Below, piece by piece: positions 470 to 56,517 of a stretch of 64,000 nucleotides of DNA. The stretch is from NCBI RefSeq assembly GCF_000744835.1, contig NZ_JQMS01000001.1:2976001-3040000 (forward strand), in the 5' to 3' direction. Under the pieces are notes generated by a model, which was not told where the DNA came from, did not search any database, and saw only the letters and a list, made by a program, of their open reading frames with translations. Positions within the stretch are counted from its first letter, which is position 1; every line of letters starts with the position of its first letter. The position numbers and the translations under genes are program-made. This stretch comes from Flavobacterium sp. 83. Lineage in GTDB: Bacteria; Bacteroidota; Bacteroidia; Flavobacteriales; Flavobacteriaceae.

Positions 470-1393
470 TTAATATTTCTCATACCAATCGAATTTATCT
501 TGGACGATATTTGATTTTTCTTTCTCTATATAGTTTAAAATAGCTTTTGCAATAGGTGAGTGCTTTTTCCCTTTAAGCCATATTAAACTCCAGTTGGTTG
601 TAATAGGTAATCCTTTAACTGGAATTATTTGCAGTTCATTGTTGCGCAATTCGTTTTTTATACCAATTAAAGGCATAATCGAATAGCCCAAACCAGCTAT
701 TAATGCTTGTTTTACGGCTTCATTTGAAGTGAGTTCCATTTTATTCATTACCGAAATGGCATTTCTTTCAAAGAAACTTACCATGATTTGTCTTGTTCCA
801 GAACCTTTTTCTCTAAAAATTAAAGGCAAATTTTCGAAAAGACTTTCTTCCTTGTCCCTCTTTTCGAAAATGATGTCGGTATTACCTACTAAATACAGTT
901 TGTTTTGAAGCAGGTCTAATTTTTCTACATTGAGTTTGGAGGGCAAAATGGAAACCAGCGCAAAATCGACTTCGTTGTTTTCTAAACTCTCTATAACCCT
1001 GCTTTTATTTGTTACATCCATCAGCAACTCGATCCCCGAATGTTCTTTCATGAAATCGGCTAGAAAATAGGGCATGACATATTTTCCTGTCGAAACAATC
1101 GAAATTTTCAATTTCCCGGCCATTCGTCCTTTGTAGGCTAAAGTTTTATAGTTGATAGCATGCACTTGATTTATGATATTCTCGGCTGCCTCAGCAATTT
1201 CATGTCCAAAATCGGTGATGTAAATTTTCCTCCCAACAACCTCTGTCAAAGGAATATCAAACTGTTCCTGAAAATTCTTTAACTGGATAGATACCGCGGG
1301 CTGGGTTAGATGCAACTCCTCCGAAGCCTTTGTCACGCTTTGTGTTTTTACTATTTTCAGAAATATCTGAAGTTGATTTAAAGTATAATTCAT
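470..1393 (-). CDS. LysR-family transcriptional regulator, CbbR/CmpR-like
   Basis: A 307-residue LysR-type regulator. Residues 1-60 form the winged helix-turn-helix (TKASEELHLTQPAVSIQLKN), followed by the linker helix and a periplasmic-binding-protein-like effector domain. The stretch STGKYVMPYFLADFMKEHSG and the following DVTNKSRVIESLENNEVDFA resemble the CbbR/CmpR/RbcR branch, which controls CO2 fixation or inorganic-carbon uptake; this is similarity by eye. The link is interesting because a carbonic anhydrase and an SbtA-type bicarbonate permease lie 4.7 kb away. A -7 box TATATTTG lies 25 nt upstream of the start. It is transcribed away from the next operon. Confidence 0.85.
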   Translation of the reverse strand: MNYTLNQLQIFLKIVKTQSVTKASEELHLTQPAVSIQLKNFQEQFDIPLTEVVGRKIYITDFGHEIAEAAENIINQVHAINYKTLAYKGRMAGKLKISIVSTGKYVMPYFLADFMKEHSGIELLMDVTNKSRVIESLENNEVDFALVSILPSKLNVEKLDLLQNKLYLVGNTDIIFEKRDKEESLFENLPLIFREKGSGTRQIMVSFFERNAISVMNKMELTSNEAVKQALIAGLGYSIMPLIGIKNELRNNELQIIPVKGLPITTNWSLIWLKGKKHSPIAKAILNYIEKEKSNIVQDKFDWYEKY

Positions 1394-10342: not shown

Positions 10343-11290
10343 TTATTTAATAAGTCCCAAATCTACTAAACGTTCGTATAAATAAGCTCCTGCAGTAATA
10401 TCTTCGAATTTTTTTGGATTTTCTGCATCAATGCAATTTTCCAAACAATCCAATTTCATATCACTTACGGGATGCATAAAAAATGGAATAGAATATCGTG
10501 AAGTTCCCCATAATTCTCTCGGTGGATTTACCACTTGATGAATCGTAGATTTCAATTTGTTATTAGTATGACGCGATAACATATCGCCCACATTAATTAC
10601 CAATTCGTCGGGTTCAGCAATGGCATCAATCCATTCACCATCATGATTTTGAACTTGTAATCCTCTTCCTTGTGCTCCCATCAATAAAGTAATTAGGTTG
10701 ATGTCACCATGAGCCGCAGCACGAATCGCATTGGCTGGCTCAGAAGTAATAGGAGGGTAATGAATAGGTCTTAAGATTGAATTCCCTTCTTTGGCATATT
10801 GGTCAAAATAAAATTCATCTAAACCAAGATGCAAAGCCAAAGCTCTCAGGACATAAACGCCTGTTTTCTCGAGCATTTGATAGGCTTCTTTACCTACCAC
10901 ATTAAAACGGGGTAATTCTTTTACTTCAACATTTTCAGGGTATTCTGAAGCATATTTTGAATCATCGGCTACATATTGTCCAAAGTGCCAAAATTCTTTC
11001 AAATCGCCTTCTTTTCTGCCTTTGGCGTGCTCTGTTCCAAAAGAAACATAGCCTCTTTGTCCTCCAATTCCAGGAATTTCATAACTGCGCTTTGTTTCTA
11101 ATGGCAAAGCGAAAAAATTTCTGATTTGATCATACAATTCATCAACCAACTGGTCGTCTAAAAAATGCCCTTTGAGTGCTACGAAGCCAATATCTTCAAA
11201 TGCACTTCCGATTTCATTTACAAATTTTTGTTTACGTTTCGGGTTGTCCGAAAGGAAATCACGCAAGTCAACACTAGGAATGTTTTGCAT
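10343..11290 (-). CDS. 2-oxoglutarate/Fe(II) oxygenase, isopenicillin-N-synthase family
   Basis: A 315-residue member of the isopenicillin N synthase/2OG-Fe(II) dioxygenase family. It has an N-terminal DIOX_N-like region (VDLRDFLSDN, ...FEDIGFVALKGH) and a jelly-roll core with the iron triad His-x-Asp in AAHGDINLITLL and the distal His in KSTIHQVVNP, followed by the 2OG-binding Arg-x-Ser in RYSIPFFMHP. It is a full-length cytosolic enzyme. The substrate cannot be predicted; it stands alone with its own terminator. Confidence 0.88.
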   Translation of the reverse strand: MQNIPSVDLRDFLSDNPKRKQKFVNEIGSAFEDIGFVALKGHFLDDQLVDELYDQIRNFFALPLETKRSYEIPGIGGQRGYVSFGTEHAKGRKEGDLKEFWHFGQYVADDSKYASEYPENVEVKELPRFNVVGKEAYQMLEKTGVYVLRALALHLGLDEFYFDQYAKEGNSILRPIHYPPITSEPANAIRAAAHGDINLITLLMGAQGRGLQVQNHDGEWIDAIAEPDELVINVGDMLSRHTNNKLKSTIHQVVNPPRELWGTSRYSIPFFMHPVSDMKLDCLENCIDAENPKKFEDITAGAYLYERLVDLGLIK

Positions 11291-25802: not shown

Positions 25803-26984
<1,182 letters not shown>

Positions 26985-27025: not shown

Positions 27026-28141
27026 ATGAATTTAAAAATAGCAGTATTGCCAGGAGACGGAATAGGGCCAGAGGTAACCCTACAGGCAAAGAAAGCTTTG
27101 TATGCTATAGGTGTAGTATATGATCATGAATTTGTTTTTGAAGATGCTCTTATGGGAGCTGTTGCCATAGATAAAACCGGAAATCCTCTCCCGGAGCAAA
27201 CGCTTAACCTTTGCCTAAATACGGATGCGGTTTTGTTTGGTGCCATTGGTGATCCAAAATACGACAACAATCCCAGCGCTAAAGTTCGTCCGGAGCAAGG
27301 TTTATTAAAATTAAGAAAAGAATTAGGTCTTTTTGCAAATATTCGACCTATAAAACCATATAAATCATTGTTAGATTCTTCTCCTTTAAAAAGAGAAATT
27401 ATTGAAGGTGCTGATTTTACTATTTTCAGAGAACTTACCGGAGGCGTTTATTTTGGCGAAAAAAAATTGAACGATGCTGGCACAATAGCTTCTGATTTGT
27501 GCGAATATTCAGAAGAGGAAATCACCCGAATTACTCATTTGGCTTTTAAAGCTGCACAAAATAGACGTAAGAAAGTAACGATGGTGGATAAAGCCAATGT
27601 TCTTGAAACTTCTCGATTATGGAGAAAAGTTGTTAAAACAGTAAGTGAAAATTATCCTGATGTACTATTGGATTTTCTTTTTGTTGATAATGCTGCAATG
27701 CAAATTATCCTAAATCCTAAACAATTTGATGTCATTTTGACCGAAAATTTATTTGGAGATATTTTATCTGATGAAGCTAGTGTTATTACAGGTTCTATAG
27801 GATTATTGGCTTCGGCATCATTAGGAAATAAAAATGCGCTTTTTGAGCCCATTCATGGTTCTTATCCGCAAGCAAAAGGTAAAAACATAGCAAATCCAAT
27901 CGCTTCAATATTATCAGCAGCAATGCTTTTAGAACATTTTGGACTTCATAAAGAAGCTAAAAAAGTGTACGAAGCTGTAGAAAAAGCAATTGAATATAAT
28001 GTTGTGACAGTAGATTTGAAAGCAGATTCAAAATTCGGGACCAATGAAGTTGGAGACTTTATTTCGAATGTCATTTTAAGTAAAGACGATTTATATTTTA
28101 AAAGTGATAATGTCCAAATAGGACAATCGACTATTGTTTAA
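27026..28141 (+). CDS. leuB: 3-isopropylmalate dehydrogenase
   Basis: A 371-residue NAD-dependent beta-decarboxylating dehydrogenase converting 3-isopropylmalate to 2-oxoisocaproate. Landmarks are LPGDGIGPEV at the N-terminus, VRPEQGLLKLRKELGLFANIRP, FRELTGGVYFGE, VDKANVLETSRLW, and the Mg-binding LFGDILSDEAS and HGSYPQAKGKNIANPIASILS. The RPEQGLLKLR helix is that of isopropylmalate rather than isocitrate dehydrogenases. It follows leuA after 41 nt; leuC and leuD are not in the window. Confidence 0.95.
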   Translation: MNLKIAVLPGDGIGPEVTLQAKKALYAIGVVYDHEFVFEDALMGAVAIDKTGNPLPEQTLNLCLNTDAVLFGAIGDPKYDNNPSAKVRPEQGLLKLRKELGLFANIRPIKPYKSLLDSSPLKREIIEGADFTIFRELTGGVYFGEKKLNDAGTIASDLCEYSEEEITRITHLAFKAAQNRRKKVTMVDKANVLETSRLWRKVVKTVSENYPDVLLDFLFVDNAAMQIILNPKQFDVILTENLFGDILSDEASVITGSIGLLASASLGNKNALFEPIHGSYPQAKGKNIANPIASILSAAMLLEHFGLHKEAKKVYEAVEKAIEYNVVTVDLKADSKFGTNEVGDFISNVILSKDDLYFKSDNVQIGQSTIV

Positions 28142-28205
28142 CAAAACAATAATCAAAAGTGCATTTAATAATTGAAAAGCACTTATAATTTTAAGATTAT
28201 TTTTT

Positions 28206-28233
28206 TTTGTTCTATTTGTTTTTCATATTTTTG
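28206..28233 (+). promoter_or_regulatory. Promoter before the ilv leader peptide
   Basis: TTTG at 28206-28209 and TATTTTTG at 28226-28233 match the Bacteroidota -33/-7 elements with a 16-bp spacer, slightly short of typical. Transcription would begin near 28240, only about 9 nt before the leader ATG, so the leader would be nearly leaderless. Confidence 0.5.
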
Positions 28234-28248
28234 AAACAAATAAAAAAA

Positions 28249-28323
28249 ATGAAAATCGTAACTATTATATCTTCAATTATTAATGTCAATGTGGTAATCA
28301 CATGTGCAGTAGGAATGTTATAG
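28249..28323 (+). CDS. ilv leader peptide (24 aa, Ile/Val-rich)
   Basis: ATG at 28249, TAG at 28321-28323. Of 24 residues, six are Ile and five are Val, with two Thr and a final Leu; the Ile/Val codons are bunched (ATT ATA; ATT ATT; GTG GTA ATC). This is the composition of attenuation leader peptides that sense charged tRNA-Ile/Val. A small hairpin ATGTG(28289-28293)/CACAT(28299-28303) sits over the Val-Val-Ile codons, and a strong terminator begins 23 nt after the stop, followed by ilvD. Ribosome stalling when Ile or Val is short would be expected to disfavour the terminator. It lacks homology-based support but the arrangement is classical. Confidence 0.78.
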   Translation: MKIVTIISSIINVNVVITCAVGML

Positions 28324-28345
28324 ATATAATTAAAAAAATATTTAA

Positions 28346-28377
28346 AACCTTCCGATTATTTTGGAAGGTTTTTTTTT
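28346..28377 (+). terminator. Attenuator terminator upstream of ilvD
   Basis: AACCTTCC (28346-28353) pairs with GGAAGGTT (28363-28370), 9-nt loop, followed by seven further T (28371-28377). It lies between the leader peptide stop and the ilvD start at 28412, with no gene ending nearby other than the leader ORF. A possible antiterminator is AGGAA at 28311-28315 pairing with TTCC in the left arm, which is short and unproven. Confidence 0.82.
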
Positions 28378-28411
28378 GGAATAAATTTATAAATACAGAA
28401 ACAATCATATA

Positions 28412-30085
28412 ATGGAATTAAATAAATACAGTAAAACAATCACCCAGGACGAAACACAACCAGCTTCTCAAGCGATGTTTTACGGAATTGGTCTGACAGA
28501 AGAAGATCTTAAAAAAGCGCAAGTAGGAATTGTGAGTATGGGTTACGACGGAAATCCTTGTAATATGCACTTAAATGATTTGGCTAAAGATATTAAGACT
28601 GGCGTCTGGAAAGAAGATTTAGTGGGTTTGATTTTTAATACTATTGGTGTAAGTGATGGTATTTCTAATGGTAATGATGGAATGCGTTTTTCTCTGGTTT
28701 CTCGTGATGTAATTGCAGATTCAATCGAAACAGTTATGGGAGCCCAATGGTATGACGGTCTGATTGCTGTTCCAGGTTGTGATAAAAATATGCCGGGAGC
28801 TTTAATGGCTATGGGTAGAGTAAATCGCCCATCTATTATGGTTTATGGTGGATCCATTCATCCAGGAAAATGGAAAGGTGAAGATTTGAATATTGTTTCT
28901 GCTTTTGAAGCTTTAGGAAAAAAAATTAAGAATACAATTACACCTGAAGATTTCAAAGGAGTAATTCAAAATGCTTGTCCAGGTGCAGGTGCTTGTGGTG
29001 GAATGTATACTGCAAACACAATGTCATCAGCAATTGAAGCATTAGGAATGAGTTTGCCTTACAGTTCTTCTAATCCTGCTTTGAGTCCAGAAAAGAAACA
29101 AGAATGTGTTGATGCTGGTAAAGCTATCAGAATATTATTAGAAAAAGATATAAAACCAAGAGATATCATGACTCGTAAAGCATTTGAAAATGCAATTACG
29201 ATGGTAGCTGTTTTAGGAGGTTCAACCAATGCGGTAATGCATTTAATTGCAATGGCACACGCTGTAGGTATTGAATTGACATTGAAAGATTTTCAAGATA
29301 TCAGTGATAAAACACCATTATTAGCCGACTTGAAACCAAGCGGTAAATACTTAATGGAAGATTTACATAATGTAGGAGGCGTTCCAGCAGTAATGAAATA
29401 TTTATTAAAAGAAGGTTTCTTACACGGTGAATGTTTGACAGTAACGGGAAAAACAATAGCTGAAAATTTAGCTTCAATTCCTGATTTACATGATGGTCAA
29501 GAAGTAATTCATGAAATCCAAAAAGCATTAAAAGCTACTGGAAATATTCAAATTCTATACGGAAATTTAGCTTCCGAAGGTTGTGTGGCTAAAATTAGCG
29601 GTAAAGAAGGTGAGTTTTTTGAAGGTACAGCGGTAGTTTTTGAAGGTGAAAAAGATGTGATTAGAGGAATACAAGCAGGTGAAGTGAAACCTGGAAACGT
29701 AGTGATTATTCGTTACTGTGGTCCAAAAGGTGGTCCTGGTATGTCTGAAATGTTAAAACCAACATCTGCCATTATGGGAGCTGGTCTAGGAAGTACTGTT
29801 GCTTTGATTACTGATGGGCGTTTCTCTGGAGGTTCTCACGGTTTTGTGGTAGGACACGTTACTCCAGAAGCCTATGAAGGTGGAGGAATTGCATTGATAG
29901 AAAACGGTGATGTGATTACAATTGATGCTGTGAAAAACACTATCAATATGAAAATATCTGACGAAGAATTGGCAAAACGTAAAGCCAACTGGGTTCAACC
30001 AGTATCACCAATTAAACAAGGAGTGTTACTTAAATATATGCGTTCGGTCTCCAGTGCCTCTGAAGGATGTGTAACCGATAAATAA
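28412..30085 (+). CDS. ilvD: Dihydroxy-acid dehydratase
   Basis: A 557-residue iron-sulfur enzyme that dehydrates dihydroxy-isovalerate and dihydroxy-methylvalerate, common to Val, Ile and Leu synthesis. Cluster cysteines are in [23 protein letters not shown] and [17 protein letters not shown]. The C-terminal half has [12 protein letters not shown] and [11 protein letters not shown]. It is the first structural gene after the leader peptide/terminator and opens the ilvD-B-N-C run. Confidence 0.97.
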
Positions 30086-30221: not shown

Positions 30222-31916
30222 ATGGGAACAAAAAAAATATCAGGCGCAGAAGCCGTTATTAGATGCTTATTAGAAGAAGGAGTAGACTTGGTTTATGGCT
30301 ATCCAGGTGGTGCCATCATGCCGGTTTACGACGAATTATATAAATTTCAAGATCAATTGCAGCATGTTTTAGTACGCCACGAACAAGGGGCGACTCATGC
30401 CGCTCAAGGATTTGCAAGAGCAACAGGGAAAGTTGGTGTGGCAATAGCTACTTCAGGTCCCGGAGCAACAAATCTTGTAACTGGAATTGCCGATGCTCAG
30501 ATTGATTCTACTCCAATGGTTTGTATTACTGGTCAGGTAGGAAAACATTTATTAGGTTCAGATGCGTTTCAAGAAACCGATATTATTGGAATTTCTACTC
30601 CGGTTACTAAATGGAATTATCAAATTACTGAGGCACATGAAATACCTGAAATAATTGCTAAAGCTTTTTTTATTGCAAGATCAGGTCGTCCTGGGCCCGT
30701 ATTGATTGATATTACAAAAAATGCTCAGTTTGACGAAATTGAATTCAGTTATAAAAAATGTACTAGCATTAGAAGTTATAATCCAAAGCCAACTTTAGAT
30801 ATTGAAAAAATCAAAGAAGCTGCGGAGCTAATTAATAATGCAAAAAAACCATATATCGTTTTTGGTCAGGGAATTATTCTTAGCGAAGCTGAAGAACAGT
30901 TAAAAGCATTAGTTGAAAAATCTGGAATTCCAGCTGCTTGGACTATTTTAGGACTTTCGGCATTGCCAACAGATCATCCCTTAAATGTAGGAATGTTAGG
31001 AATGCACGGAAATTACGGACCTAATCTATTAACAAACGAGTGTGATGTTTTGATTGCACTTGGAATGCGTTTTGATGACCGTGTGACTGGAAATTTAGCC
31101 ACTTATGCAAAACAAGCTAAAGTTATTCACTTCGAAATTGATCCGTCGGAGATAGATAAAAACGTAAAAACAACTGTGGCCGTTTTAGCCGATGTCAAAG
31201 AATCGCTGACTGCCTTACTCCCTTTAATCAAAAGTAACACACATGAATCTTGGCACAACGAGTTCAAGGAAATGTATAAAATTGAACAAGAAGAAGTAAT
31301 CAATGACGAGTTAAAACCTAAGAAAGAAGGAATTTCCATGGGGGAAACTATCGAAATGATTAACAAACATTCTAAAGGTGACGCTATAATTGTACCTGAT
31401 GTAGGGCAACACCAGATGTTTGCCTGTCGTTATGCTAAATTCAATTCGACTAAAAGCATCATTAATTCTGGAGGTTTAGGAACGATGGGATTTGCTTTAC
31501 CGGCTGCGATTGGGGCCAAAATGGGAATGCCGGAACGTGAAGTGGTTGCTATTATTGGTGATGGTGGTTTTCAAATGACCATTCAGGAATTAGGAACTAT
31601 TTTTCAAACTAAAGTTCCTGTAAAAATTGTTGTTTTGAACAACGAATTTTTAGGAATGGTGCGTCAGTGGCAACAATTGTTTTTTGACAAAAGATATGCT
31701 TCTACGGAAATGACCAATCCTAACTTTATAGCGATTGCTGAAGGTTATTATATTAAAGCAAAAAAAGTAACCAAAAGAGAAGATTTAGATGCGGCCGTTG
31801 CTGAAATGATGGCTTCAAAAGAATCGTACTTCCTTGAAGTTATGGTAGAAAAAGAAAATAATGTATTCCCAATGATTCCAACAGGAGCATCGGTTTCTGA
31901 GATGAGATTAAGTTAA
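30222..31916 (+). CDS. ilvB: Acetolactate synthase large subunit
   Basis: A 564-residue thiamine-diphosphate enzyme that makes acetolactate or acetohydroxybutyrate from pyruvate (and 2-oxobutyrate). The catalytic Glu is in RHEQGATHAAQGFARATG, FAD/substrate regions in GPVLIDITKN, and the ThDP motif in IIGDGGFQMTIQELGT ... NNEFLGMVRQWQQLF. It is followed 4 nt later by its regulatory subunit gene. The 136-nt spacer after ilvD shows no clear terminator, so read-through from the attenuated promoter is likely. Confidence 0.96.
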   Translation: MGTKKISGAEAVIRCLLEEGVDLVYGYPGGAIMPVYDELYKFQDQLQHVLVRHEQGATHAAQGFARATGKVGVAIATSGPGATNLVTGIADAQIDSTPMVCITGQVGKHLLGSDAFQETDIIGISTPVTKWNYQITEAHEIPEIIAKAFFIARSGRPGPVLIDITKNAQFDEIEFSYKKCTSIRSYNPKPTLDIEKIKEAAELINNAKKPYIVFGQGIILSEAEEQLKALVEKSGIPAAWTILGLSALPTDHPLNVGMLGMHGNYGPNLLTNECDVLIALGMRFDDRVTGNLATYAKQAKVIHFEIDPSEIDKNVKTTVAVLADVKESLTALLPLIKSNTHESWHNEFKEMYKIEQEEVINDELKPKKEGISMGETIEMINKHSKGDAIIVPDVGQHQMFACRYAKFNSTKSIINSGGLGTMGFALPAAIGAKMGMPEREVVAIIGDGGFQMTIQELGTIFQTKVPVKIVVLNNEFLGMVRQWQQLFFDKRYASTEMTNPNFIAIAEGYYIKAKKVTKREDLDAAVAEMMASKESYFLEVMVEKENNVFPMIPTGASVSEMRLS

Positions 31917-31920
31917 TATT

Positions 31921-32442
31921 ATGGAAAATAAAACATTCACCATTTCTGTTTATTCAGAAAACAACGTTGGCTTATTAAACAGAATATCTGGAATATTCTT
32001 GAAACGCCATATCAATATATTGAGTCTAAATGTATCCGAATCAGAAATAGAAAATGTTTCCAGATTCATCATCGTAGTAGATACAACTGAAAAATGGGTA
32101 CAAAATATTGTAGGCCAAATCGAAAAACAAATCGAAGTAATCAAAGCTTTTTATCATGTAGATGAAGAAACTATTTTTTTAGAAAGTGCTTTGTTCAAAA
32201 TACATTCCAGTTTATTATTTGATGAAAGACAAATACAAAATATCATTAAAGAAAGCCACTCAGAAATCGTTACTGTATCAAGAGACTTTTTTGTAATTTC
32301 AAAATCAGGAAGGCGTTCTGAAATTGAAGAACTTTATGAAAAATTAAAACCTTTCGGAATAATGCAGTTTGTGCGTTCAGGAAGAATATCAGTTTCCAAA
32401 GAAAAAATGGAAATATCAACTTTATTAGAAGAACTTAAATAG
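31921..32442 (+). CDS. ilvN: Acetolactate synthase small (regulatory) subunit
   Basis: A 173-residue ACT-domain subunit (FTISVYSENNVGLLNRISGIFLKRHINILSLN) with the acetolactate-synthase-small C-terminal domain. It activates the large subunit and usually confers valine feedback inhibition. The GLLNRISGIF loop is the valine-binding segment of the family. It starts 4 nt after ilvB. Confidence 0.94.
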   Translation: MENKTFTISVYSENNVGLLNRISGIFLKRHINILSLNVSESEIENVSRFIIVVDTTEKWVQNIVGQIEKQIEVIKAFYHVDEETIFLESALFKIHSSLLFDERQIQNIIKESHSEIVTVSRDFFVISKSGRRSEIEELYEKLKPFGIMQFVRSGRISVSKEKMEISTLLEELK

Positions 32443-32528: not shown

Positions 32529-33998
32529 ATGGCAAATTATTTCAATTCATTACCACTTAGATTACAATTAGAACAATTAGGCGTTTGCGAATTCATGGAT
32601 CAATCTGAATTTTCAAATGGTATAGCAGCATTAGCAGGAAAAAAAGTAGTTATCGTAGGTTGTGGAGCTCAAGGTTTGAACCAAGGTTTAAACATGAGAG
32701 ATTCGGGTTTAGATATTTCTTACGCATTGCGTGCAGAAGCAATTGCTCAAAAAAGAGCTTCTTACATGAATGCTGCTGATAATGGTTTCAAAGTGGGAAC
32801 TTATGAAGAATTAATTCCAACTGCTGATTTGGTTTGTAACCTTACACCAGATAAACAACATACTGCTGTAGTAACAGCAATCATGCCTTTGATGAAAAAC
32901 GGTTCAACATTAGCTTATTCTCATGGTTTCAATATCGTAGAAGAGGGAATGCAAATTCGTAAAGACATCACGGTTATCATGTGTGCTCCTAAATGTCCAG
33001 GATCTGAAGTTCGTGAAGAATATAAAAGAGGTTTTGGTGTACCAACTTTAATCGCAGTTCACCCTGAAAATGATCCAAACGGAGAAGGTTTCGAACAAGC
33101 AAAAGCATACGCAGTTGCTACTGGTGGACATAAAGCTGGAGTTTTGAACTCATCTTTTGTTGCTGAAGTAAAATCGGATTTAATGGGAGAACAAACCATT
33201 CTTTGTGGAATGTTACAAACAGGTTCAATTTTATGTTTCGATAAAATGGTTGAAAAAGGAATCGAGCCAGCTTATGCTTCAAAATTAATTCAGTACGGTT
33301 GGGAAACTATAACTGAAGCTTTGAAACATGGTGGAATTACAAACATGATGGATCGTCTTTCTAATCCTGCAAAAATTGAAGCTTATGAAATTTCGGAAGA
33401 ATTGAAAGATATTATGCGTCCGTTATTCCAAAAACATCAAGATGATATTATTTCTGGAGAATTTTCAAGAAACATGATGATTGACTGGGACAATAATGAT
33501 GTTAATTTATTGACTTGGAGAGCTGCAACTGCAGAAACTAATTTTGAAAAAACGGCTCCAACAGCAGCTCATATTTCAGAACAAGAATATTTTGACAATG
33601 GTGTTTTAATGATTGCAATGGTTAAAGCGGGTGTAGAATTAGCTTTCGAAACAATGACACAATCAGGAATCATTGAAGAATCAGCTTACTACGAATCTTT
33701 ACATGAATTACCTTTGATTGCAAATACAGTTGCAAGAAAAAAATTATATGAAATGAACAGAATCATTTCTGATACAGCAGAATACGGTTGTTATTTGTTT
33801 GATCATGCTTGTAAGCCTTTATTGGTTGATTTTATGAAAACTGTAGACACAAACATAATTGGTAAACCATTCTCAACTTCTAACGGAGTAGATAATGCAG
33901 TACTTATTGCCGTAAATAAAAGTATTCGTCAACACCCTATTGAAGAAGTAGGAGAGTGGTTGAGAGAATCTATGACTGCAATGAAAAAAATAGGATAA
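32529..33998 (+). CDS. ilvC: Ketol-acid reductoisomerase, class II (long form)
   Basis: A 489-residue NADPH-dependent enzyme that isomerises and reduces acetolactate. The dinucleotide loop [21 protein letters not shown] is near residue 35, and the length shows the duplicated C-terminal domain of class II KARI, as in Escherichia coli rather than the ~330-residue class I. Substrate/metal residues are in [17 protein letters not shown]. It is the last gene of the ilv run; an AACG-CTTAAAAA-CGTT type inverted repeat lies in the 86-nt spacer before it. Confidence 0.96.
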
Positions 33999-56389: not shown

Positions 56390-56441
56390 TTTTTTGAATT
56401 TTATAATTTTATAAAAAAGTTGTTTTGTAAACGGTAATTTT

Positions 56442-56517
56442 TAGCCCCGATGGAAACGACATCCTGTTGTGGCGGGGTTCGCCACAACAGATATAGTGTA
56501 CAGCGGGATTAGCTCCT
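56442..56517 (+). repeat. Framed intergenic repeat element, copy 1
   Basis: Begins TAGCCCCGAT (56442-56451) and ends AGCGGGATTAGCTCCT (56502-56517). Inside is a GC-rich perfect hairpin: CTGTTGTGGCG (56464-56474) with CGCCACAACAG (56480-56490), 11 bp, 5-nt loop, very unlike the AT-rich surroundings. The frame words can themselves pair (TAGCCCCG with CGGGATTA, one mismatch and one G-U). A second element with the same frame lies at 63644-63795. I recall such sequences as frequent in Flavobacterium intergenic regions. Confidence 0.6.

Follow-up and report, generated by a model that had tools for sequence, protein, structure and literature searches.

A putative Ile/Val leader peptide attenuator, with an antiterminator over the leader stop codon, ahead of ilvD in Flavobacterium

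The leuB-ilvD spacer and its leader ORF

The window that we analyzed, a 64,000-nucleotide stretch of the Flavobacterium sp. 83 genome, has the gene order leuA-leuB, a 270-nt spacer, and then ilvD-ilvB-ilvN-ilvC; the names leuB, ilvD, ilvB, ilvN, and ilvC were assigned by NCBIfam. All four ilv genes lie on the plus strand. The first regulated gene would be ilvD, encoding dihydroxy-acid dehydratase (28412-30085; TIGR00110, 727 bits), followed by ilvB (30222-31916; TIGR00118), ilvN (31921-32442; TIGR00119), and ilvC (32529-33998; TIGR00465). Gene order and spacing suggest that these genes form one operon. Directly 3' of leuB, also on the plus strand, is a nested hairpin with a T-run (28148-28208; fold z -2.3) that is probably the leuB terminator. 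It touches the -33 region of the ilvD promoter. The LeuA-like protein of the window (25803-26984, 393 aa) matches approximately 387 of 494 profile positions and seems to be missing the C-terminal regulatory part. A search of this genome for an IlvA-type threonine ammonia-lyase gave a best match of 26% identity, with none higher over most of the length; Ile may be made by another route, e.g., from citramalate.

The spacer contains a leader ORF, MKIVTIISSIINVNVVITCAVGML, that runs on the plus strand from an ATG at 28249 to a stop codon at 28321-28323. As the sequence-only reading had described, this ORF has 24 codons, among them 6 Ile and 5 Val. An ORF with at least 11 Ile and Val codons making up at least 40% of its length arose in only 7 of 5,000 dinucleotide shuffles of the 270-nt spacer. 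Codons for the end products of the pathway (11 of 24) are thus concentrated in an ORF ahead of the first gene, and relatives keep it. Our comparisons draw on 68 loci (56 distinct sequences) chosen by an ORF length of 18 to 26, at least 28% Ile plus Val, a terminator with CTTCC or CTCCC, and a spacing of 85 to 115 nt. Neither the antiterminator described below nor codon position was used in choosing them. Comparison of these sequences identifies the ORF, the placement of its codons, the antiterminator, the terminator, and the promoter box as parts of the element.

A sequence of the form TAnnTTTG (TATTTTTG, 28226-28233, plus strand), the -7 box of the Bacteroidota primary sigma factor, precedes the ORF. 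In the available text of PMC9723704, TAnnTTTG covers positions -12 to -5 relative to the transcription start, which would place the start at about 28238. Among the 56 distinct sequences, 52 have TAnnTTTG 23 to 30 nt 5' of the ATG, and the -7 box proposed in the sequence-only reading is thus supported by comparison. The proposed -33 box, a TTTG at 28206-28209 on the plus strand, is a weaker candidate, with TTG at that place in 11 of the 52 sequences that have a -7 box. The same reading had described a near-leaderless start, with translation beginning about 9 nt from the transcript end. The predicted 5' leader is instead 11 nt in the window and 11 to 18 nt in 52 of the 56 relatives, and we rejected the leaderless mRNA class on these lengths. 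The window transcript would be leadered, though short relative to the median of 24 given for F. psychrophilum in the available text of PMC9723704. In 48 of the 56 distinct sequences, position -3 relative to the leader ATG is A, in agreement with what the accessible part of PMC6847099 describes for this position in F. johnsoniae.

A hairpin that we call P1 (28289-28303, plus strand) is formed within the ORF by AUGUG/CACAU over codons 14 to 19, with arms at 28289-28293 and 28299-28303. The fold of P1 alone in the window is unremarkable (z 0.2), so its conservation is visible only through comparison: 97.3% of cells are paired in 52 distinct rows, which exceeds every slid control, and compensating exchanges of A-U for U-A and of G-C for U-A are present. 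The internal hairpin of the sequence-only reading is therefore present and conserved, but it lies outside both the terminator and the antiterminator. We rejected P1 as the switch, since it shares no base with either structure; it could possibly act as a pause hairpin.

Competing hairpins and predicted ribosome positions

Between the leader ORF and ilvD is an intrinsic terminator (28344-28377, plus strand), indicated by prediction, folding, and covariation and consisting of a stem (28344-28355/28361-28372) and a run of nine T residues (28369-28377). It folds with -15.1 kcal/mol (z -4.6) and is the sole terminator called across 27900-28600, where 0.1 would be expected; the whole stretch from 28241 to 28380 has a fold z of -3.2. 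An 8-bp stem with a T-run had been noted here from the sequence alone. The terminator is real, but its stem has 12 pairs, of which the 8 are only the core. Its arms change together among the 56 distinct sequences, with CCTTCC/GGAAGG in 22, CCTCCC/GGGAGG in 21, CTCCC/GGGAGT in 9, mixed arms in 3, and 1 unscored. In 23 representatives, the terminator's own arms outpair swapped arms (p 0.0002).

The decisive part of the proposed switch is an antiterminator that was absent from the sequence-only reading. It spans 28312-28353 on the plus strand and comprises three helices (28312-28315/28350-28353, 28317-28319/28346-28348, and 28321-28327/28338-28344), with 14 pairs, -8.7 kcal/mol, and z -3.7 in the window. 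Its 5' arm starts at the last codons of the leader and overlaps the leader stop codon. Because bases 28344, 28346-28348, and 28350-28353 are common to both structures, the antiterminator and the terminator are mutually exclusive. The outer core of the antiterminator pairs in 56 of 56 distinct sequences (GGGA:UCCC in 30, GGAA:UUCC in 25, and one with a missing pair). Its middle helix is in most cases GGU:ACC or GUU:AAC, but some lineages (L002, L007, L060, and L068) have other bases there. When only the segment from the leader end to the terminator 5' arm was folded, all 23 representatives formed the outer core and an inner A/U helix, each with z below -1 (mean -2.1). RNAalifold found no consensus structure in the antiterminator region because bulge and loop lengths vary, and per-sequence folding was used instead; pairs were also counted per sequence because some rows of alignment A1 have the terminator arm in the wrong place. 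The antiterminator's own arms outpair swapped arms with a weaker effect than those of the terminator (p 0.009, 14 of 23). The stop codon of the ORF comes four codons sooner in L052-L054, yet the nucleotides GGGAATGGTATAAATATAATTG are retained, which argues that this stretch is kept as RNA and not as peptide.

The distribution of Ile and Val codons fits this geometry. In the 23 representatives, Ile and Val account for 220 of 345 codons at positions 3 to 17 (64%) versus 17 of 145 later codons (12%). In our model, the ribosome was assumed to extend 15 nt beyond the first base of its P site. A stall at codon 17, where the last Ile of the cluster is encoded, would place the ribosome edge at 28309, short of the arm at 28312, whereas a ribosome at the leader stop codon would cover the arm. 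In 22 of 23 representatives, the arm is predicted to be free with a stall at the last Ile, Val, or Leu codon up to codon 19, such that the control codons are placed to free or hide the antiterminator. With this assumed footprint, the mean antiterminator probability in the 23 representatives is 0.95 when the ribosome is stalled and 0.00 when it is at the stop codon; for the stalled state, the masked region was made to end before the antiterminator arm, a choice that favors L068, the one of the 23 whose last Ile codon comes too late.

The state without a ribosome is less uniform. Its antiterminator probability ranges from 0.01 to 1.00, with 0.68 in the window, and our models do not predict that the untranslated leader terminates as clearly as E. 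coli trp, in which a 1:2 protector helix gives termination without translation. A candidate 1:2 helix between codons 3 to 9 and the region around and after the stop codon beats shuffled arms in 12 of 23 representatives, and its own arms outpair swapped arms (permutation p 0.0004); we make no claim for it. At equilibrium, the terminator (-15.1 kcal/mol) is stronger than the antiterminator (-8.7 kcal/mol), and terminator pairing is 1.00 in all ribosome states, stalled included, save one (0.76). For this reason, the model would require that the antiterminator forms first during transcription.

We consider it very probable, judging from sequence comparison and modelling, that this element controls ilvDBNC by ribosome-mediated transcription attenuation, with the levels of charged tRNA-Ile and tRNA-Val as the signal. 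RNA polymerase would start near 28238, and a ribosome would load on the leader within about a dozen nucleotides. When Ile and Val are ample, the translating ribosome would reach the stop codon and cover about 28303-28333, hiding the antiterminator 5' arm; the terminator at 28344-28372 would then form and transcription would stop near 28377. When Ile or Val is scarce, the ribosome would stall on codons 3 to 17, leaving 28312-28327 free to pair with 28338-28353. The terminator 5' arm would then be occupied and the polymerase would read through into ilvD. The attenuator proposed in the sequence-only reading is supported in that relatives keep the ORF and the terminator along with an antiterminator core that excludes it.

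We also considered whether the hairpins might be switched by a T-box, a riboswitch, a protein, or a small RNA in place of the leader ribosome. P1, whose conservation includes compensating changes, could be read in favor of such a switch, as its own role is unproven. In the window, however, only a Flavo-1 RNA (RF01705, 65.9 bits; 56439-56514) reaches an Rfam gathering score, and the T-box model is unmatched. A switch of this kind would also not account for why Ile and Val codons are kept and why the antiterminator arm overlaps the stop codon, and we give it a very low probability, the smallest among the explanations weighed here.

Leader units in relatives and in other pathways

The sequence-only reading had proposed that relatives should keep the Ile/Val codons and the terminator while other bases drift. 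An Ile/Val-rich ATG ORF and a terminator occur at the same place in 34 of 80 ilvD loci of named related genomes, with covarying terminator arms as described above. Carriers include F. flevense (L003) and F. pectinovorum (L014). The element is absent directly ahead of ilvD in the other 46 loci, including L050, in which only 1 nt could be inspected. In 10 of these 46, a unit lies ahead of a branched-chain aminotransferase gene that heads ilvE-ilvD-ilvB (identified as ilvE by NCBIfam for L065 and L075 and by eye for the other loci); these loci are titled Flavobacteriales or Flavobacteriia, Fluviicola/Crocinitomicaceae, and Chitinophaga. The remaining 36 of 80 loci have no such unit in the available upstream sequence, which is at most 3 kb long and far shorter at a few loci.

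An unregulated or partial terminator accompanied by a chance ORF, with read-through into ilvD at a fixed rate, could account for the loci that lack the element, 46 of 80, and for a terminator that outweighs the antiterminator at equilibrium. Against it stand the rarity of such an ORF in shuffled spacers, the antiterminator core in every distinct sequence, and a codon placement that fits the fold. We therefore regard this explanation as highly improbable and continue with the attenuator.

An RNA model built from the 56 distinct sequences matches 77 of 199 Flavobacterium genomes (E at most 0.001, weak matches included), with one match in the window's own genome. In genomes with a known ilvD locus, strong matches lie just 5' of ilvD; the exception is G009, in which ilvE is next. 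We read nine stretches of approximately 7 to 12 kb from Flavobacterium genomes that had seemed to be without a leader at ilvD, and eight of these (L131-L135, L137-L139) contain no trusted unit. L136 has a leader unit at ilvD that a stricter scan had overlooked.

Pairing between the stop-codon segment and the terminator 5' arm extends to units of diverse sequence. We grouped leader units from the loci read into 36 clusters less than 0.80 alike. This pairing has a mean z of -2.7 and falls below -1.5 in 30 of 36 clusters, the other 6 missing that value; a control segment from the ORF start in the same clusters has a mean z of 0.2, with 1 of 36 below -1.5. The cluster set includes three units on the opposite strand to the ilv genes that we hold to be false (L075 minus, L260 minus, and L266 plus), one of which passes -1.5. 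The window's own unit reaches only -0.8 in this test of short duplexes (-0.9 in a repeat), since its antiterminator depends largely on the inner A/U helix.

In a sample across the phylum, a unit occurs on the coding strand in 13 of 70 upstream stretches and on the reverse strand in none. The 70 loci were the 30 best scoring of a list plus 40 picked from that list for genus spread. The 30 best-profile loci (L147-L176) contain no leader units, which is weak evidence of absence, as their strand was set by ORF length alone. The codon content of the leaders varies with the gene that follows. The Ile:Val ratio of distinct leaders is 20:1 ahead of ilvA or ilvN-like genes (n = 12), 3.4:1 ahead of ilvE (n = 25), and 1.1:1 ahead of ilvD (n = 62). 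The ilvD class also takes in units assigned to it only because they lie close to a stretch end (17 of the 111 distinct units that were clustered, among them the one in L260). Before these ratios were computed, we merged identical peptides and removed the L260 unit along with any row that lacked a following gene. By this count, leaders ahead of ilvA or ilvN-like genes are nearly Ile-only and ilvD leaders carry both codons, such that codon content follows the pathway. In L254-L260, L263, and L264, one or two nearly Ile-only leader units lie 5' of a lone ilvN-like ACT protein; that of L255 scores under the curated cut-offs for the AHAS small subunit.

Leader-like ORFs for other amino acids are found in the genome of the window. 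An ORF with a HHHHSH motif (MLSIQLHHHHSHYCSQAMC) and a terminator precede hisG (L217:1313-1430, plus strand), and CTCAAGCG near the ORF stop codon is complementary, with one G-U pair, to CGTTTGAG of the terminator; this is probably a His attenuator. Ahead of trpE, an ORF with WWW (MKTTINNTWWWNNLRQSS) and a terminator (L221:728-849, plus strand) form a probable Trp attenuator; trpE itself scores 441.7 bits against TIGR00564, under its cut-off, and seems to start with TTG. A probable Phe/Tyr attenuator 5' of pheA (L223, 1256-1386, minus strand) has an ORF with 5 Phe and 3 Tyr codons of 18 (MSNNRFYFSNTYYFFFRK) and a terminator. Pairing of the stop-codon region with the terminator arm has a z of -2.1 for His, -1.4 for Trp, and -0.9 for Phe. 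A Thr leader-like ORF (MVNNRSTYQSSITTQNWVAIAVTFTATTTTTTP; 11 Thr of 33) lies 5' of a thrA-type gene (L277:998-1099, plus strand) with a TAnnTTTG box 5' and hairpins 3'; a clear T-run terminator was not seen there. No leader was seen at a second thrA-type gene or at two other chorismate-family genes of this genome.

These leaders bear on whether the ilvD ORF might instead encode a small hydrophobic membrane peptide or toxin that carries its own terminator and is unconnected to ilvD control. The leader peptide is indeed hydrophobic and could pass as a membrane segment. Its composition argues otherwise, as Ile and Val outnumber Leu, Phe, Ala, and Met, with (I+V)/(L+F+A+M) of 3.7 in ilvD leaders, 6.5 in ilvE leaders, and 4.6 in ilvA/ilvN-like leaders. 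Nor would a membrane peptide or toxin be expected to show an Ile:Val ratio that tracks the downstream gene, to lose its last codons in some relatives where the RNA stays, or to have counterparts at hisG, trpE, and pheA in the same genome. We judge it no likelier than the chance ORF with a plain terminator, and the attenuator remains our preferred reading.

Relation to known attenuators and consequences for the phylum

The enterobacterial ilv attenuators (ilvGMEDA, ilvBN) combine a short ORF of end-product codons, alternative antiterminator and terminator structures, and Ile/Val genes behind them. The element shares all of these features, which we take as likeness and not homology. It differs in having an antiterminator arm that overlaps the stop codon, a Bacteroidota-type promoter, a short, A-rich 5' leader, and ilvD as the first gene. 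The enterobacterial layout suggested by the sequence-only reading thus holds for the ORF, terminator, and antiterminator, but the likeness is incomplete, with a 1:2 helix beyond shuffles in just over half of the representatives. A 2004 comparative study by Vitreschak and others reportedly included Bacteroidetes.

The available text of PMC9723704 reports strong clues for leader peptide attenuation 5' of amino acid operons in F. psychrophilum, i.e., the same proposed mechanism in the same genus, so the kind of mechanism was already known for Flavobacterium. That text names no ilv operon, antiterminator, or codon analysis, and the accessible part of PMC7366714 describes short ORFs in Bacteroides that are reminiscent of leader peptides. 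Neither paper, in its available text, mentions attenuation of ilv genes, the antiterminator found here and its overlap with the stop codon, or Ile gates in tandem. A Corynebacterium ilvBNC attenuator, as described in the accessible parts of PMC11857589 and PMC10272879, likewise has a leader ORF and hairpins before ilv genes, in another phylum.

The part that would surprise is the tandem arrangement in relatives. In L143 (Flavobacterium), three leader-terminator units lie in series 5' of ilvE (10867-11255, plus strand). Unit one, MKNLSIIPSIIIVNVIITSARGML, is of the Ile/Val type found in the window and is followed by the Ile-only units MKTNMNIIISIIIRSSE and MKTNMNIIIISIIIRSSG, each with its own terminator; units two and three are identical at 121 of 137 positions. 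L271 also has three units in series 5' of ilvE (approximately 520-906, minus strand), the first probably with a TTG start. Two units are found in L130/L142 (one genome), L215, L197 (another family), L255, L258, L263, L264, L265, and L266. In L143 and L271, codons for both Ile and Val are present in the first unit, and the units after it have Ile alone; elsewhere, the split is less clean. We lean slightly toward the view that, in Flavobacterium and its relatives, serial attenuators govern ilv genes, with terminators passed in turn such that read-through would multiply, making the response to Ile steep and joining the Ile/Val and Ile-only signals in an AND-like logic. No tandem amino acid attenuators were among the matches listed in our literature search, which covered few subscription journals; the phrase "two attenuators" occurs in the available text of an msrD paper (PMC10314930). 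Salmonella mgtCBR, according to the accessible part of PMC3641672, is attenuated through a single leader RNA that contains two leader ORFs. These sense different signals, ATP and proline, whereas the two or three serial units of the Flavobacterium relatives share Ile codons.

If the attenuator operates as proposed, it would be a defined and testable point at which Bacteroidota control the synthesis of branched-chain amino acids. One design, an antiterminator arm placed over the leader stop codon, appears to recur among units of unrelated sequence whose codons suit the pathway that they precede. Leader peptide attenuation demands that a ribosome follow RNA polymerase closely, and Bacteroidota initiate translation without Shine-Dalgarno sequences. 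Attenuators in such bacteria would make the question of transcription-translation coupling directly testable in this phylum. The serial arrangement, if true, would imply close ribosome-polymerase coupling in a phylum without Shine-Dalgarno initiation, and Ile gates in tandem would serve naturally as an amino acid switch with several steps.
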